A DNA stretch of 64,000 nucleotides from Lachnospiraceae bacterium (GTDB taxonomy: Bacteria > Bacillota > Clostridia > Lachnospirales > Lachnospiraceae), in NCBI GenBank assembly GCA_021770785.1, contig JAETQH010000015.1:1-64000 (forward strand). Reading direction: 5' to 3'. Every line of letters begins with the position of its first letter. Within the stretch, counting starts at the first letter, position 1. Shown one piece after another: positions 22,928 through 57,799 of this stretch. The position numbers and the translations under genes are program-made. The notes under the pieces were generated by a model. It saw only the letters and a list, made by a program, of their open reading frames with translations. It ran no database searches and was not told the origin of the DNA.

Positions 22928-22966
22928 TTGGTAAATTATTCCAATTTATCAGTGTAGGTGAGGACT

Positions 22967-24289
22967 TTGAAACGCGAATATTTATCAAAAAATGTTTTTG
23001 AGGCACTGCAGGAACGTTTTCATTTCTTGTTTAACGAATTTGACAATATCTTTATTTCTTTTTCCGGCGGAAAGGACAGCGGTCTGCTCTTAAATCTTCT
23101 TTTGGATTTTCGGAAAAAATACTACCCCAACAAAACCATTGGTGTTTTTCATCAGGATTTTGAAGCGCAGTACAGTGTGACAACGGAATATATAGAAAAA
23201 ACCTTTTCCCGGTTGGAAAAGGAAGAAAATGTGGAGCTTTACTGGGTCTGTCTACCCATAGCGACAAGAACTGCCCTAAGCAGCTATGAAATGTACTGGT
23301 ATCCATGGGATGATACAAAGGAGGAAATCTGGGTCCGTCCCATGCCAAAACATCCCTACGTCATTCATTTGGAAAACAACCCCATCACCACCTATCATTA
23401 CAAAATGCACCAGGAGGATCTGGCGAAGCAGTTTGGCAGGTGGTATCGTCTTTCCCATAAAAATAAGAAAACTGTCTGCCTGCTGGGTATGCGCTCTGAC
23501 GAATCTTTACAGCGTTACAGCGGAATTCTGAATAAAAAGTACGGTTACAAGGATACCTGCTGGATCAGCAATCAATTCAAGGATGTGTGGTGTGCCTCCC
23601 CCCTTTACGACTGGTCCACCGGGGACGTGTGGCACGCAAACTACAGCTTTGGATATGAATACAATCGTCTTTATGACCTGTACTATATGGCAGGCTTAAA
23701 ACCGGACCAGATGCGGGTTGCCTCTCCCTTCAACGACTATGCCAAGGACAGCCTGAATCTCTACCGTGTCATCGACCCGAAAATCTGGGTCAAGCTGGTG
23801 GGGCGGGTACAGGGTGCAAACTTCACTGCAATTTACGCCCGGACAAAGGCGATGGGCTATAAGAATCTGACGCTGCCGGAGGGGCATACCTGGGAATCCT
23901 ATACCCATTTCCTGCTTTCCACACTGCCCCCGCGGCTGCGAAACAATTATATCCAGAAATTCAAATCCTCCATCCGGTTCTGGCACAATGTGGGTGGCGG
24001 TTTAGAGGAAGATACCATAAAAGAGTTGGAGGACCATGGGTACGCCATTGCGCGCAACGGCGTGTCCAATTACACTCTGATGAAGCGATCCCGCATTATT
24101 TTCCTTGGGAAAATTCCCGACAATACGGACGATATTAAGACCTCTAAGGATATCCCCAGTTGGAAACGCATGTGCTTCTGCATTTTAAAAAACGACCATA
24201 TCTGCCGTTTTATGGGCTTTGGAATCACCAGGGAACAGCAGAAAAACATTAACTTTTTAAAAGAAAAATACAGCAAAGTAGGTGAGTAA
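22967..24289 (+). CDS. ibrA: IbrA-like PAPS-reductase-family protein (DUF3440)
   Basis: About 440 residues. An N-terminal PP-loop ATPase domain of the PAPS reductase type (ISFSGGKDSGLLLNLLLDF, loop at residues 33-38; later CLLGMRSDES) is followed by the DUF3440 region (SPLYDWSTGDVWHAN, ASPFNDYAKDSLNLYRVIDP, RVQGANFTAIYA). This matches IbrA, known in E. coli with IbrB as an activator of prophage-borne eib genes; the biochemical reaction is not established. The start used is TTG at 22967, with AGGTGAGG just upstream, giving MKREYLSKNVFEA; an in-frame GTG at 22958 is the alternative. The ibrB gene follows after two bases, so the two are one unit. No phage genes are visible around it. Confidence 0.85.
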   Translation: MKREYLSKNVFEALQERFHFLFNEFDNIFISFSGGKDSGLLLNLLLDFRKKYYPNKTIGVFHQDFEAQYSVTTEYIEKTFSRLEKEENVELYWVCLPIATRTALSSYEMYWYPWDDTKEEIWVRPMPKHPYVIHLENNPITTYHYKMHQEDLAKQFGRWYRLSHKNKKTVCLLGMRSDESLQRYSGILNKKYGYKDTCWISNQFKDVWCASPLYDWSTGDVWHANYSFGYEYNRLYDLYYMAGLKPDQMRVASPFNDYAKDSLNLYRVIDPKIWVKLVGRVQGANFTAIYARTKAMGYKNLTLPEGHTWESYTHFLLSTLPPRLRNNYIQKFKSSIRFWHNVGGGLEEDTIKELEDHGYAIARNGVSNYTLMKRSRIIFLGKIPDNTDDIKTSKDIPSWKRMCFCILKNDHICRFMGFGITREQQKNINFLKEKYSKVGE

Positions 24290-24291
24290 TT

Positions 24292-24855
24292 ATGTCATTT
24301 ATCAGTCCCGTATATCATGTAATTTCCGTCCCCATTGAAAAAATAGAGCCAAACACCTATAACCCAAACTCTGTGGCACCACCGGAATTAAAACTGCTCT
24401 ATGACAGTATCAAGGAGGACGGTTATACCATGCCGATTGTCTGCTATTATGATTCAGAGCGGGATTCCTACATTATTGTAGACGGTTTCCACCGCTACCG
24501 CATTATGTTAGACTATCCCGATATTTATGAGCGGGAGGGCGGAAAACTTCCGGTCTCCGTCATTGACAAGCCCATCGACTGCCGGATGGCAAGTACCATA
24601 AGGCACAACCGGGCAAGAGGCTCCCATGATGTGGATTTGATGAGCAACATTATCAAGGAACTCCATGAGCTGGGACGCTCCGATGCATGGATTTCAAAGC
24701 ACCTGGGTATGGATAGGGACGAGATTCTGCGTTTGAAGCAAATTACCGGGCTTGCCTCCCTCTTCCGTGATGTGGAATTCGGACAGGCGTGGCGTGCCGT
24801 GGAGGAAAAATTGGACGATTATGATACATCAGAACTGTCGGATGAGATAGATTAA
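24292..24855 (+). CDS. ibrB: IbrB-like ParB/Srx-fold protein
   Basis: A 187-residue ParB-type N-terminal domain protein. Visible are the ParB start motif IEKIEPNTYNPNSVAPPELKLL, the nucleotide-binding-type loop VDGFHRYRI (about residues 63-71, the GxxR box), and TIRHNRARGSHDVDLMSNII (the NR..x..E-like box III), followed by a helix-turn-helix-like segment SDAWISKHLGMDRDEILRLKQ. It starts 2 bases after the ibrA stop with GGTGAG upstream, so translation is coupled. In E. coli IbrA and IbrB act together as regulators. Whether this copy controls transcription or modifies nucleic acid is unknown. A hairpin follows the stop at 24881-24911. Confidence 0.85.
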   Translation: MSFISPVYHVISVPIEKIEPNTYNPNSVAPPELKLLYDSIKEDGYTMPIVCYYDSERDSYIIVDGFHRYRIMLDYPDIYEREGGKLPVSVIDKPIDCRMASTIRHNRARGSHDVDLMSNIIKELHELGRSDAWISKHLGMDRDEILRLKQITGLASLFRDVEFGQAWRAVEEKLDDYDTSELSDEID

Positions 24856-25036: not shown

Positions 25037-25120
25037 TGCCGGCGACCGGAATCGAACCGGTACTGTATTTCTACAACAGGATTTTAAGTCCTGCGCGTCT
25101 GCCAGTTCCGCCACGCCGGC
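25037..25120 (-). tRNA. tRNA-Leu (UAA)
   Basis: An 84-nt class II tRNA. The acceptor stem GCCGGCG/CGCCGGC closes. The anticodon loop CTTAAAA lies in stem CAGGA/TCCTG, giving anticodon UAA. A long variable arm and the T-loop GGTTCGATTCC are present. The 3' CCA is not encoded and must be added by the cca product also in this window. Confidence 0.97.
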
Positions 25121-25223
25121 ACTTATGTAATTAAAAATACTGCCTCCTATGTTCAAACGCCTGACGGTTCTCCCCTTCACTCACAAGCTGCAGAAGAATT
25201 AGTTCCTACCGGACAGTATTTCA

Positions 25224-25305
25224 TGGGCAGAGGTGGATTCGAACCACCGAAGCAATTTGCAGCAGATTTACAGTCTGTCCCCTTTGGCCACTCGGGAATC
25301 TGCCC
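25224..25305 (-). tRNA. tRNA-Tyr (GUA)
   Basis: An 82-nt class II tRNA with acceptor stem GGGCAGA/TCTGCCC, anticodon loop CTGTAAA (anticodon GUA), a variable arm CTGCAAATTGC, and T-arm GTGGTTCGAATCCAC. CCA is not encoded. First of a two-tRNA unit with tRNA-Leu. About 100 bp between the two hold no gene. Confidence 0.97.
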
Positions 25306-27913: not shown

Positions 27914-28077
27914 ATGTAACGGGATTAAAAATGCAGGTTGACTTTACATGTCAATCGGATGCCCAGTAACCAAATCAGACAATATTTGGCAACATTTAGC
28001 AACCTTTTACAAAAAAAGGTACATTTTTTCAATCTAAAATACTATAATAAAGATATCATTATCATGTGGAGGTTTCT

Positions 28078-29973
28078 ATGGTCAGTATCGACGATATCTC
28101 ATACGCCTTTAAAAATTATTTTTCCAATTTTATAAACAGTATTTCTTTAGATGAGAAACTACTTGCGCCCGCGCCAAAAGAGGAGTGGATTCGCCGTCTG
28201 CAGGATTGTGCCCGCTTCCAGGCAAGTGTCCGCCAGGAGGACCAGCATATGATTCATTCATTAAATACACTTTTAACAGAGCAGTCTGACACCCTCACCG
28301 CTGCCCACTATGACACTATTTTAAAATACTGTCGGAAGTTATATTATGCAAACTCCAACGAGCCGCCTATCCTTTTGGATTTGGCGCAGAAATTAATTCC
28401 CCATTATGAAAGATTAGATGACACGGAAAATCTGCTTTTTCTCTACTGCTGCGCCGGATACGCTTCCTCCCAGCTTTCCCGCATTGACAGCGGAAACGTC
28501 AGAAAGCTTTCCTCTTATTATTACAAAAAAGTCATCTCCTACCGGGACGAAATTGATACCTTCCAAAATCCCGTAAGCCGCGACTATATTTTTATTGCCT
28601 ACAACAATCTAATCCGTATCGGACCGCGGGCCGGCTGGCTTACCTTAGAAGAATCCTATTCCCTGTGTCAGGAATTATATTCTATCCGGTGTCAGAAAAA
28701 ATTCCGGCAGTTCGACAAGAGCAATCCAAGAATTCCAAGCCTTTGTAAGAAAGCCATTGACGGTTTTCTTAACAACGATTGCCTTGCCGATTTAGAAGGT
28801 TTCTCTTTCACCGAAAATATGCACCAGTTTTGTATCACCCTATCCAAAAAACGCTTTGAAGAGGACAGGACGAAAGCAAAATCCTTTTATCACTGCCCCG
28901 CCTCCACTGTTTTCCAATACTATAAGATTCTGGCTGAGGAAGGCAGTATCTCCTGGGAAGAAGCCTGTGAGATATTAGACGATTACTATTTCAAAAAAGA
29001 GAAGCTGCTCTCCGAAGAAATTGACTTTGATCACCTGACTTTTTACGTGGATTTTGCCATGCTTTTAATCTCCTTTTTGAACAAAACCTCTCTGCCTGCC
29101 TCAAAAAAGAAAGCAAAAATAGTACAGTACCGCCTTCTTTTAAAAAATTTTCTGTCTAACTGCCAGACTGTATTAGAGCGTTATACCTTATGTGAAGGAC
29201 TGTATTTTGCCACCTTCCATCCCTTAATTTTAGAAACTTTTGAGAACCCGGTGGAGAAAACCAATTTCATTATTGATTCTGTGGTTTCCAGTCATCTGCC
29301 TACCATGACCCATTCTGTCATGGTATCCTACTTAGCAGAGGCCATCCTCAAGCATGTTTTTTTGTACTGTCCAGAGATATTAATTACTCCCAAATCACAC
29401 ATGACACTTGACGAACTGCTTACAAAACAACCCCAGGTTACCGACTACGCCGTACAAGCTGCCCTGCTGCATGATATTGGAAAAAACGGCATCGTACCTG
29501 TTATCATGACCCAGCACCGCAATCTGACCGATTACGAATACAGTCTTCTTAAAATGCACCCCCAAAAGGGCGCTGACTATCTGTCCGACAGGGATTTTAT
29601 CGTCTACCGGGACATCGCTCTAGGACACCACAAATCCTATGACGGAAAACGGGGCTATCCGGTAGACTTTGATAATGTACACTCCCCCTACCGTCCCATC
29701 ATTGACCTAATTCACATCTGCGACTGCATAGATGCCGCCACCGACTACCTGAGCCGGAACTATAATCGTGTCAAATCCTTTGCTACGGTGATGGAGGAAT
29801 TAGAGGCAGAAAAGGGAACGGAATACAATCCCGTTCTGGTGGATTTGATTTTAGAACATGACGATCTGTACCGGGAGCTCCGGTTCTTAGTCGAACAGAA
29901 GCGGGAGGATATCTACTATGATGTGTATCTCACCTTTGCAAATAAACACGTTGCCAATATGGAGCACCTCTGA
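28078..29973 (+). CDS. HD-GYP domain protein with novel N-terminal region
   Basis: About 631 residues from the ATG with GGAGG 6 bases upstream (an upstream GTG at 28066 lacks a site). The C-terminal third holds an HD domain of the HD-GYP class: ALLHDIGKNG, KMHPQKGADYL, ALGHHKSYDGKRGYP and HICDCIDAATD. Such domains hydrolyse cyclic dinucleotides, classically c-di-GMP to GMP. The GYP box is DGKRGYP, one residue longer than the usual DGxGYP, and HHE is replaced by HHK, so activity or substrate may differ. The first 400 residues are helical and TPR-like with no recognised input domain, and the protein has no membrane segment. It is a single gene; another HD-GYP and a GGDEF gene are also in the window. 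Confidence 0.85.
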   Translation: MVSIDDISYAFKNYFSNFINSISLDEKLLAPAPKEEWIRRLQDCARFQASVRQEDQHMIHSLNTLLTEQSDTLTAAHYDTILKYCRKLYYANSNEPPILLDLAQKLIPHYERLDDTENLLFLYCCAGYASSQLSRIDSGNVRKLSSYYYKKVISYRDEIDTFQNPVSRDYIFIAYNNLIRIGPRAGWLTLEESYSLCQELYSIRCQKKFRQFDKSNPRIPSLCKKAIDGFLNNDCLADLEGFSFTENMHQFCITLSKKRFEEDRTKAKSFYHCPASTVFQYYKILAEEGSISWEEACEILDDYYFKKEKLLSEEIDFDHLTFYVDFAMLLISFLNKTSLPASKKKAKIVQYRLLLKNFLSNCQTVLERYTLCEGLYFATFHPLILETFENPVEKTNFIIDSVVSSHLPTMTHSVMVSYLAEAILKHVFLYCPEILITPKSHMTLDELLTKQPQVTDYAVQAALLHDIGKNGIVPVIMTQHRNLTDYEYSLLKMHPQKGADYLSDRDFIVYRDIALGHHKSYDGKRGYPVDFDNVHSPYRPIIDLIHICDCIDAATDYLSRNYNRVKSFATVMEELEAEKGTEYNPVLVDLILEHDDLYRELRFLVEQKREDIYYDVYLTFANKHVANMEHL

Positions 29974-30186: not shown

Positions 30187-30340
30187 GACAAAAAAACAGC
30201 AGCCCTTCCGGACTGCTGTTTTAGGAGAAGGTATTTTTACTATGGGGTATAGCAAAAACTATATATAATGTATTGGGGGGTTTTACAGGTATTATAATAC
30301 CACCTTCTCCCGAATAAGTGTGCACAAACTTCACAATTTT
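30187..30340 (-). ncRNA. Structured RNA-like element, copy A, with terminator
   Basis: Read on the minus strand: conserved flank (GTGAAGTTTGTGCACAC), stem strand GGGAGAAGG, small palindrome GGTATTATAATACC, hairpin TATAGTTTTTGCTATA, closing strand CCTTCTCC, then a terminator AACAGCAGTCC ggaa GGGCTGCTGTT followed by seven T. Positions 30221-30299 are identical to 30591-30669. The closing stem plus internal hairpins suggest a three-way-junction RNA of about 100-120 nt. No known family was recognised. It lies downstream of ftsH. Confidence 0.55.
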
Positions 30341-30443
30341 TGTTATTACTTTCTGGTAAATATGCACAATACTTGTATACAAGACCTGGCTTCCCCCGAA
30401 ACGCCACATTCCCCGCAAGTCTCTTTACTCTATGGGCGCGGCG

Positions 30444-30520
30444 CAGCCTTCATACCTTTCGGCTCCACACAGCCTCATACCTTCCGGCTCCACACAGCCT
30501 TATACCTTTCGGCTGCATGG
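30444..30520. repeat. Three tandem 25-26 bp repeats
   Basis: Units begin at 30444, 30470 and 30495 with consensus CAGCCTCATACCTTTCGGCTCCACA. Each contains AGCC...GGCT, able to form a tiny hairpin. They lie between the two copies of the structured element. No coding frame or CRISPR-like spacer pattern is present. Confidence 0.75.
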
Positions 30521-30555
30521 TATTTCCCATAGAAATTTGCGTGCCAAACGAGAGG

Positions 30556-30710
30556 GACAAAAAAACAACAACCATCGCTGGCTGCTGTTTTTAGGAGAAG
30601 GTATTTTTACTATGGGGTATAGCAAAAACTATATATAATGTATTGGGGGGTTTTACAGGTATTATAATATCACCTTCTCCCGGATAAGTGTGCACAAACT
30701 TCACAATTTT
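30556..30710 (-). ncRNA. Structured RNA-like element, copy B, with terminator
   Basis: This copy is nearer ftsH and nearly identical to copy A over 120 bp (two substitutions outside the terminator). Its terminator stem differs in sequence but still folds: AACAGCAGCC pairs with GGTTGTTGTT using two G-U pairs, then eight T. Conservation of folding despite sequence change supports a functional terminator. It begins about 75 bases after the ftsH stop codon, so it could be the end of the ftsH mRNA or an independent small RNA. Confidence 0.55.
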
Positions 30711-30784
30711 ATCTCTTCCAAACTGTGCATTTTGTACAGTACTTTTTTCTCTTGCATACAAGTCTGAAAGAAAAACTGCACAAC

Positions 30785-32608
30785 TTACGCTTCAAATAAT
30801 GCCTCAAACTCTTTCTGCCCGATTTTTTCCTTTTCTAACAGCAGGCCGGCACAGGCATCCAGCACGCCCCTGTTTTCCATAATCATGGCTTTTGCCTTGG
30901 CATAGCAGTCATCAATGATACGCTTTACCTCCTGGTCAATGGCAGTTGCCACGCCCTCACTGTAGCCTCTGGTGTGGGCAAGGTCACGTCCGATAAACAC
31001 TTCGTCATCATCATTATCATAGCAAATCAGACCTACGTTATCTGACATACCATACCGTGTCACCATGGCTTTCGCCAGCTTCGTCGCCTGCTTAATATCC
31101 TGGGAGGCTCCCGTGGTAATATCGTCAAATACCAGCTCCTCCGCCACACGTCCGCCTAAGGAGACGATAATATCCTGCAGCATCTTGCCCTTAGTGTTAA
31201 ACATTTCATCCTTTTCCGGCAGAGGCATGGTGTAGCCCGCTGCGCCATTTCCCGTAGGAATAATGGAAACGGTATATACCGGTCCCACATCCGGCAACAG
31301 ATGAAACAAAATCGCATGGCCGGACTCATGAAAAGCTGTAATCCGTTTTTCCTTCTCGGAAATGATACGGCTCTTCTTCTCTGCGCCGATACCCACTTTA
31401 ACAAAGGATTTCTTAATATCCCCCTGGGTCAGGAAAGCTCTGTTCTCCCTCGCCGCCACAATAGCTGCTTCGTTTAAAAGGTTCTCCAAATCCGCTCCGG
31501 TAAATCCGGCTGTGGTCTGTGCCACCTCTTTTAAATCCACATCATCCCCTAAAGGCTTATTTTTTGCATGGACATGGAGGATTTCCTCCCTGCCGCCCAC
31601 ATCGGGGCGTCCCACATAAACCTTACGGTCAAAACGGCCGGGGCGCATAATGGCCGGGTCGAGGATATCCACACGGTTGGTTGCCGCCATCACGATAATG
31701 CCCTCGTTAATACCAAAGCCGTCCATCTCCACTAACATCTGATTTAAAGTCTGCTCGCGCTCGTCATGACCGCCGCCCATACCGGTTCCGCGGCGTCTTG
31801 CCACAGCATCAATCTCATCAATGAATACAATACAGGGGGCATTCTTTTTCGCTTCTTCAAACAAATCCCTGACACGGGAAGCTCCCACACCCACGAACAT
31901 TTCCACAAAGTCAGAACCGGAAATGCTAAAGAAGGGCACACCTGCCTCTCCTGCGATTGCCTTTGCCAGAAGGGTTTTACCTGTTCCCGGAGGTCCTACC
32001 AAAAGCACTCCCTTGGGGATTCTTGCCCCTAACTTGGTGTATTTTCTGGGTTCCTTTAAAAAATCTACGATTTCCTCTAACTCTTCTTTTTCCTCTTTCA
32101 GCCCCGCCACCTTTTCAAAGGTCACACGTTTTTCCGGATCATCTGCCATCATTTTTGCACGGCTCTTGCCGAAGTTCATCATTTTGCTGCCGCCGCCGGA
32201 ATTTGCAGCTGCCTGATTGGTCATAATGATAAAGAAAATAAACATGGCGGCAAAAATAATCAGATAAGGCAGCAGTGTCAGAAGCCAGCTTTCCTCCGGC
32301 GGGCTCTGCACGGTATAGTTCTTAACTCCCTGCTCCCGCATATAGCTTTCCACCTCTGCCACGTCGGACACATAGAGCACCTGGGTGCTCCCGTCGTTGA
32401 ACAAAATCTGGAGGCTACCCGTAGGCACTTCCCTGTTGGGCACCACATGAACCTGCGCCACCTCACCGCTCTCGATGGCTTCTTCAAACTGGGCCCTGGT
32501 GTAATTGTTGGTTGCCGAATTGCCGTCTAACCAATACCAGATTGCAACCACCGCCAAAATTAATATGAGATAAATTCCAAATCCTCTAAAACTACTTCTT
32601 CTATTCAC
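30785..32608 (-). CDS. ftsH: ATP-dependent zinc metalloprotease FtsH
   Basis: A 607-residue membrane-anchored AAA+ protease that degrades misfolded membrane and short-lived regulatory proteins. Two membrane segments (about 9-27 and 108-130) enclose the extracellular FtsH_ext domain. Walker A GPPGTGKT is at 205-212, Walker B VFIDEID at 261-267, the second region of homology runs from 309 to 328, and the zinc motif HESGH is at 427-431. The start is GTG with AAGGAG upstream and overlaps the hpt stop region by 8 bases. The order spoIIE-tilS-hpt-ftsH is the classical Firmicute arrangement. Two structured RNA-like elements follow the gene. Confidence 0.97.
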
Positions 32609-57596: not shown

Positions 57597-57757
57597 AAAA
57601 AAATCCACTTGCGAAAACAAGTGGAAATGACAGTTCTAAACTATAATCAAATCCTCTTATTGTTCGAACTTTTCTCTTTGCTCGCTCAGGCTGGCACCTT
57701 CCCTAAGGGGTTGCCGTGACTTCACAGATCCTTTGTATCTCCATCACTCTGAATAAG
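57597..57757 (-). ncRNA. SAM-I (S-box) riboswitch with terminator
   Basis: On the minus strand the aptamer runs 57757 to 57654: P1 CTTATTCAGAG...AATAAGAG, the conserved CACGGCAACCCC and AAGGTGCCA, and the CTGAGCGAGCAAAGAG end. The expression platform follows: hairpin CCACTTG TTTTC GCAAGTGG with seven T (57597-57624). Controls metK; ligand binding should favour the terminator. Assigned by eye from the S-box core. Confidence 0.95.
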
Positions 57758-57799
57758 AAAATTTAGCCAACTTATGAAATTTTTTATGGTACAGGTTAT

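Follow-up and report, generated by a model that had tools for sequence, protein, structure and literature searches.

In low-GC Gram-positive bacteria, contact with Shine-Dalgarno sequences is an established role of C-rich motifs (PMC4132741 and PMC9410917). The closest known systems are small RNAs (sRNAs) of Listeria, Staphylococcus, and Bacillus. LhrC1-5 of Listeria is a multicopy sRNA that impedes the translation of a target; it has three redundant CU-rich sites, located in a stem-loop, a single-stranded stretch, and the terminator, and requires a conserved promoter region upstream (PMC4132741). RsaE/RoxS of Staphylococcus and Bacillus is conserved between Firmicutes genera (PMC4409812) and pairs with targets through a UCCC motif (PMC4132741). 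IsrR of Staphylococcus is 174 nt long and has two Fur boxes (PMC9410917). Among RNAs of gut Clostridiales, Clostridiales-1 RNA (RF01699) has been reported (PMC2864571). The terms ftsH, Roseburia, and Lachnospir- are absent from the main texts of PMC8040213 and PMC2864571. No sRNA described in Lachnospiraceae such as Roseburia, Blautia, or Agathobacter rectalis was found in the literature searched.

In this work, we analyzed a window of 64,000 nucleotides from a Lachnospiraceae genome (the whole stretch introduced above). Downstream of ftsH (30785-32608, minus strand; Pfam Peptidase_M41 and FtsH_ext), it contains two copies of what is almost certainly a real RNA gene under selection. The gene product is probably a trans-acting, multicopy, C-rich antisense sRNA that has its own promoter and blocks translation at Shine-Dalgarno sites. 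This reading draws on sequence evidence, namely, the homologues, the conservation of promoter and terminator, the RNA core compared with its surroundings, and the predicted accessibility of the C-rich segments.

A sequence-only reading of this DNA had proposed two copies of about 155 bp after ftsH, 370 bp apart, and we found the same start spacing of 370. The identity claimed for 30221-30299 and 30591-30669 also holds, with a slightly longer exact match of 81 bp (30219-30299 and 30589-30669). The longer copies share 89% (156 nt, ungapped) to 94% (blastn, 154 nt) identity. The minus strand proposed for the RNA was borne out by folding: compared with dinucleotide shuffles, copies 1 and 2 have z-scores of -5.97 and -6.89 on the minus strand (0 of 200 shuffles as good) and much weaker ones of -2.78 and -0.83 on the plus strand. 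A third copy is located on another contig of the same genome (G000:C139:2968-3121, 83% by blastn), where it sits after a sigma-factor gene. Because ftsH is the usual upstream neighbor of the copies, the pair in the window probably arose by recent tandem duplication at the apparently ancestral site of the sRNA gene. The region between the two copies also contains a tandem array with 2.8 copies of a 25-bp unit (CAGCCTCATACCTTTCGGCTCCACA; 30444-30514).

Across 193 aligned copies, the order of elements from 5' to 3' is box I, box II, spacer, extended -10, RNA core, A-tract, and terminator. The predicted RNA starts with GUAAAACCCCCCAAUACAU, followed by a hairpin with CCCC in the loop, AAUACCUUCUCC, and an intrinsic terminator. 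On the minus strand of the window, copy 1 has box II (TTGTGAAGTTTGTGCACACTT) at 30316-30336, with a core at 30316-30328 delimited by conservation over aligned copies, and an extended -10 (TGGTATTATAAT) at 30291-30302, placed by its fixed spacing to box II and to a conserved G. The predicted sRNA of about 97 nt lies at 30190-30286, its 5' end being placed from the -10 and the start of conservation; the covariance model R2, whose seed includes both window copies, matches 30190-30287 with 108.5 bits. Within this RNA are the 5' C-run CCCCCC (C-rich motif 1, 30275-30280), the central hairpin with CCCC in its loop (C-rich motif 2, 30233-30259), and the anti-Shine-Dalgarno-like ACCTTCTCC (C-rich motif 3, 30224-30232), with predicted unpaired probabilities that average 0.96, 0.99 (loop), and 0.86 over the family. 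The intrinsic terminator is at 30189-30222, based on a terminator scan and its location in the sequence.

Copy 2, also on the minus strand, has a box I region (TACTGTACAAAATGCACA) at 30720-30742, with approximate ends read from the sequence; box I is degenerate in copy 1. Box II (30686-30706), the extended -10 TGATATTATAAT (30661-30672), and motif 3, again ACCTTCTCC (30594-30602), were placed from the aligned copies. The predicted sRNA is about 98 nt (30559-30656; R2, 104.6 bits, 30559-30657), with motif 1 at 30645-30650 as located in the sequence and the hairpin of motif 2 at 30603-30629 as located in the sequence and in a 20-sequence alignment. The intrinsic terminator (30558-30592) comes from the predicted fold and is absent from the terminator scan. 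A terminator had been claimed for each copy, and both stems do pair in the predicted folds, with the simple scan listing that of copy 1 only. The copy 2 terminator is unlike that of copy 1 in sequence and keeps its pairing with G-U pairs.

The boundaries of the RNA differ from those first proposed. The entire 155-bp element had been taken as RNA, whereas the RNA as predicted here has a length of about 97 nt (30286-30190 and 30656-30559). GGAGAAGG, previously assigned to the 5' arm inside the RNA, lies between box II and the -10, and hence upstream of the predicted RNA start. It is found at 30303-30310 in copy 1, within the promoter spacer (0.26 bits) and outside the predicted RNA, and at 30673-30680 in copy 2 as located in the sequence. 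The supposed second internal hairpin GGTATTATAATACC (GGUAUUAUAAUACC) is the -10 element. As for the closing stem GGAGAAGG/CCTTCTCC, the complementarity exists in both window copies but is not conserved. A closed multi-stem RNA was ruled out on 187 copies, among which full (8 of 8) complementarity was found in four, two of them the window copies. The conserved feature is mainly the sequence of C-rich segments that are predicted to be unpaired, not a closed multi-stem structure. The claim that no protein frame is shared stood in part: one minus-strand frame spans both copies (30221-30418 and 30591-30761), but the lengths of the homologues break it. A small protein gene was rejected, with an ATG before CCTTCTCC in 9 of 172 copies and core lengths falling in all three frames (111, 37, and 22 of 170).

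Conservation along the gene is uneven. Over the 193 copies, the RNA core (GUAAAACCCCCCAAUACAUUAUAUAG UUUUUGCUAYACCCCAUA... AAUACCUUCUCC) has 1.77 bits over 62 columns, and the values per column are 1.72 bits for the box II core TTTGTGCACACTT, 1.39 for the extended -10 TGNTATTATAAT, and 1.06 for box I (A..TGCACAAAAA). The promoter spacer is variable at 0.26 bits, and the spacer, terminator loop, and flanks together span 0.16-0.26 bits; the terminator varies in both stem and loop, with 0.16 bits in the loop. The distance from box II to the -10 (TATTAT) is 16 nt in 166 of the 193 copies, and that from the -10 to the conserved G, which we took as the RNA start, is 7 nt in 175. For 116 of these copies, retrieval used a pattern requiring AATACCTTCTCC together with part of the hairpin; box II and the -10 are outside the pattern. 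Motif 3 is therefore invariant by construction in those 116, and conservation was recounted on the other 77, which are mostly from one genus. The recount gave 1.75 bits for the box II core, 1.65 for the -10, 1.81 for the RNA core, and 0.38 for the spacer, with the 16-nt spacing in 77/77 and the 7-nt spacing in 74/77. Among the non-pattern copies that hold all columns of AATACCTTCTCC, 74 of 75 have it.

A sigma-70 scan of the window found no site with a -35 at the sRNA promoter, which fits activation from box II. Since a conserved upstream box replaces a recognizable -35, control by an activator is probable. Inspection by eye against the consensus sites of Rex, GlnR/TnrA, CRP, CcpA, Spo0A, WalR/PhoP, and CiaR revealed none that agrees with box II in sequence and spacing together; box II is not known to resemble any operator. 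A palindrome in box II was not supported by mutual information. When eight genomes were searched with the promoter pattern, allowing up to two mismatches, 18 of the 21 matches were sRNA copies with zero or one mismatch, and these cover 18 of the 19 sRNA copies known there. The three matches elsewhere have two mismatches each, and a reversed-pattern control gave six matches. A 14-base form of the box had 17 matches in 35 genomes, some of which are sRNA copies, and no clear regulon emerged. We tentatively consider that the promoter element may be private, being almost exclusive to the sRNA copies, and that the RNA may be an order-wide C-rich riboregulator of Lachnospirales, as a counterpart of RsaE/RoxS or IsrR. 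If true, one regulator would address the genome chiefly through the sRNA. The apparently dedicated promoter box is a route to its regulator.

Gene neighborhoods were compared in two sets of copies that overlap in a few genomes. Among 125 copies from named genomes, 99 lie immediately behind ftsH on the same strand, and the remaining copies follow a sigma-factor gene (2), other genes (14), or a contig end (10). Among 77 copies from sampled genomes, the corresponding counts are 39 for ftsH, 13 for the sigma-factor gene, 24 for other genes, and 1 for a contig end. The ftsH label is from Pfam, as are those of ThiC, the alpha-amylase-family protein, and the sigma factor, for each of which one member was assigned; the labels rest also on a plasmid-labelled record of Agathobacter rectalis (spoIIE-tilS-hpt-ftsH). 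The name sigH for the sigma-factor gene is our own reading.

The frequent position behind ftsH would also be expected if the RNA were the 3' end of the ftsH mRNA, possibly released as a 3'-UTR sRNA, in which GGAGAAGG could close a stem in the window copies. In line with this, the scan found no minus-strand terminator between ftsH and copy 2, although the scan also missed copy 2's own terminator and the stretch does fold (-23.2 kcal/mol). Furthermore, complementarity to CCTTCTCC at no fewer than seven of eight positions occurs in 19 of 181 distinct spacers, where shuffling predicts about 3; when column composition is kept, the count is 19 of 166, with about 8 expected. We read this excess as the result of a purine-rich spacer and shared ancestry, which do not fully explain it. 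However, a conserved box and -10 at fixed spacing separate ftsH from the RNA, the spacer varies in other respects, and copies without ftsH (15 behind the sigma-factor gene and 38 behind other genes, of 202) keep both the promoter and the RNA. An origin from the ftsH transcript is thus unlikely.

Downstream genes vary among the copies and are often convergent. An alpha-amylase-family gene comes next on the same strand in 73 of the 125 named copies (63 behind ftsH and 10 others), as might be expected of a cis-acting leader or attenuator that uses the terminator as an off switch for the downstream gene. This explanation is very improbable given that there is no fixed same-strand downstream gene. 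The gene next to the window copies is convergent (28066-29973, plus strand; from the ORF list), and among the 155 closest downstream ORFs with 120 aa or more, 34 lie on the other strand. Moreover, copies behind the sigma-factor gene precede various other genes, thiC included, and some genomes have tandem copies. A free-standing sRNA gene accommodates these arrangements. Elsewhere in the window, a SAM (S-box) riboswitch was found on the minus strand (57654-57759, 67.3 bits). The plus strand at 22958-24855 encodes a PAPS-reductase/DUF3440 protein and, after it, a ParB_N-like protein (24.3 bits, where the cut-off is 26.3), with two tRNA genes nearby at 25037-25305; the 22958-24855 region may be part of an integrated mobile element.

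The homologues anticipated by the sequence-only reading were recovered by blastn, pattern, and model searches. With blastn, the element was found in 41 of 60 relatives, many of whose genomes are incomplete; these include 35 of 36 genomes of its own genus when its own genome is counted. Applying nhmmer to the fetched loci gave 77 distinct copies: 69 from 35 genus genomes, and 8 from six genomes that belong to other families. These 35 genomes have one (11 genomes), two (15), three (8), or four (1) copies. A DNA pattern search found at least 119 stretches in named genomes; the taxa among the matches listed include Lachnospiraceae, Roseburia, Blautia, Eubacterium, Butyrivibrio, Enterocloster, Lachnoclostridium, and others, with a few labelled Oscillospiraceae or Eubacteriaceae. 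The model R1, which describes sequence without structure and was built from 76 sequences, matches 253 of 393 sampled genomes of Lachnospirales, covering its own family and nine others, some weakly (E near 1e-5). Among those listed, at least 20 genomes of its own family have no R1 match, and the search filters lose weak matches. In a class-wide sample, R1 matches 23 of 393 genomes, with 22 belonging to its own order. The sole match outside the order (G755, weak and partial, E 6.8e-5) lacks a promoter, a C-run, and ACCTTCTC, and appears to be a chance match. The highest number of sRNA-model matches in one genome, among the matches listed, is six (G367). A member of the same family as the window's genome (L273:1950-2160, in G086) keeps the promoter box, the -10, the C-run, and the CACCC loop and has lost CCUUCUCC/CCTTCTCC; it is possibly a decayed or shortened variant.

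For 45 pairs of paralogues, each pair from a single genome of the genus, mean identity is 96% for the RNA core, 71% for the terminator, 68% for the upstream boxes, and 52% for the spacer. Because the core is kept while the other parts diverge, these sequences indicate that selection acts on the RNA. The same divergence, down to 52-71% outside the core, bears on the idea of a non-coding mobile repeat (MITE-like) without cellular function. Such a repeat could account for the presence of more than one copy (two to four) in 24 of the 35 genomes of the genus that have the sRNA, but most copies retain the position behind ftsH, phage records gave no match to the sRNA, and the sole plasmid-labelled record with a match (Agathobacter rectalis; Lachnospirales, Lachnospiraceae) has the same ftsH context. 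We regard this idea as scarcely credible. One contig in a virus collection carries an sRNA copy (L195).

A test for a fold and a U-run could be applied to the terminators of 184 copies and was passed by 173, with 118 different 5' stems; seven copies were too short for this test. By eye, most of the 11 copies that failed still have a stem and U-run, and L150-5561 does not. The structure was evaluated on alignment A2, which contains 20 sequences chosen from the 76 (own genus and near relatives) with a structure specified by hand; this structure was read from one member sequence, and the percentage paired is therefore biased towards it. The compensatory changes reported earlier between the two window terminators have a counterpart here, as 7 of 11 terminator pairs have changes on both sides. 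For the whole structure, 0 of 500 shuffles reach the observed covariation values. In the central hairpin, no pair changed on both sides and 8 of 11 pairs never vary, so covariation speaks neither for nor against that hairpin. RNAalifold predicted no pairs on the 76-sequence alignment A1, in which terminators of unequal length are misaligned.

The C-rich motifs are predicted to be exposed. Their mean unpaired probabilities are 0.96, 0.99, and 0.86 for motifs 1, 2, and 3, compared with 0.54 elsewhere before the terminator (172 distinct RNAs; 170 for the loop C-run of motif 2), and values above 0.7 were obtained in 99%, 99%, and 81% of the RNAs, respectively. In distant families, the central hairpin is altered or gone, and the C-runs and AAUACCUUCUC are mostly retained, which suggests turnover of structure around fixed motifs. 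A possible 5' hairpin (GUGAAAA/UUUUCAC) surrounds the C-run in L074 (by folding) and in L263 and L264 (by reading), and could be an alternative display of the same motif. In L072, L074, L263, and L264, C-runs are beside or inside differing possible hairpins (GUGAAAA/UUUUCAC and GCAGCAAA/UUUGCUGC).

From these patterns, we infer transcription, an activator, antisense pairing, and translational repression. In the proposed mechanism, each copy would be a free-standing gene on the minus strand that produces a trans-acting sRNA of about 97 nt from its own promoter after ftsH, and the transcript would end at its own intrinsic terminator. An activator bound to the conserved upstream box, at a fixed distance from the extended -10, would probably switch the promoter on. 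The RNA would then display three unpaired C-rich segments, namely, the 5' CCCCCC, ACCCC in the hairpin loop, and CCUUCUCC in the linker. Base pairing of these segments with the G-rich Shine-Dalgarno sequences in target mRNAs would block translation. CCUUCUCC is able to pair with GGAGAAGG and, via a G-U pair, with GGAGGAGG, a strong Shine-Dalgarno sequence. Translational repression in trans is favored because contacts between C-rich motifs and Shine-Dalgarno sequences are known.

Target searches gave no candidates beyond expectation. For the 48 start regions of the window, the duplex energy was -15.33 kcal/mol, compared with -15.28 kcal/mol for a reversed-sRNA control. In the own genome, near-complements (up to one mismatch) of 12 motif-3 bases numbered 70, fewer than the 96 of the control; 30 of these 70 places had loci for an ORF check, which gave no convincing target. 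When 35 genomes were searched for the 14-base complement of motif 2, the exact matches were the sRNA genes themselves. In addition, the AU-rich intervals of the core show almost the same degree of conservation as the C-runs. This conservation is beyond what Shine-Dalgarno pairing alone demands and counts against the mechanism, as does the family member L273 without CCUUCUCC. The AU-rich stretches, the lack of targets from these searches, and the several copies in many genus genomes would all suit an RNA that acts mainly by binding protein, as a sponge or structural RNA, rather than on mRNAs. However, the central hairpin is altered or lost in distant families where the C-runs and AAUACCUUCUC mostly persist, and we consider protein binding as the main function improbable. 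Pairing with Shine-Dalgarno sequences remains our preferred explanation.

Roseburia, Blautia, and Agathobacter rectalis, all Lachnospiraceae, are among the abundant commensals of the gut. An sRNA gene with a fixed promoter that is conserved through much of the order and amplified in the genus of the window is an entry to post-transcriptional control there, as the gene is findable by its sequence and can be deleted, and its targets can be mapped. No known family had been recognized for the RNA in the sequence-only reading, and this agrees with Rfam 15 (4,227 families): no family reached its gathering score at the element, and the window matches were the SAM riboswitch and tRNAs elsewhere only. 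The best sub-threshold match at the element was PsrR1, with 26.0 bits against a cut-off of 42. Similarly, 18 related loci had no Rfam match at the sRNA. An earlier description of the sRNA family was not found in the literature searched, which has partial coverage, so that the RNA is undescribed as far as Rfam and this literature extend. Clostridiales-1 RNA (RF01699) is below its gathering score in the window and the 18 related loci. A Clostridiales-3 RNA (RF02942, 179 bits) is encoded on the minus strand at L117:1077-1339, in the same 8-kb locus as an sRNA copy.

Rfam holds models of LhrC and RsaE. Neither LhrC nor RsaE/RoxS has a sequence match to the sRNA through Rfam. LhrC1-5 and the sRNA have in common multiple copies, three C- or CU-rich sites, and a conserved upstream promoter region; they differ in that LhrC uses the motif UCCC and the regulator LisR, whereas the motifs of the sRNA are CCCCCC, ACCCC, and CCUUCUCC. 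IsrR is longer (174 nt, compared with about 97 nt), and no Fur box was recognized by eye at the sRNA. The features of C-rich trans-acting sRNAs of Firmicutes that were found at this locus are an own promoter and terminator and C-rich motifs that are predicted to be exposed. By analogy, the best explanation is that the sRNA works like LhrC, RsaE/RoxS, or IsrR while fitting no Rfam model. The sRNA family is new, and its functional kind, the C-rich trans-acting sRNA of Firmicutes, is known.
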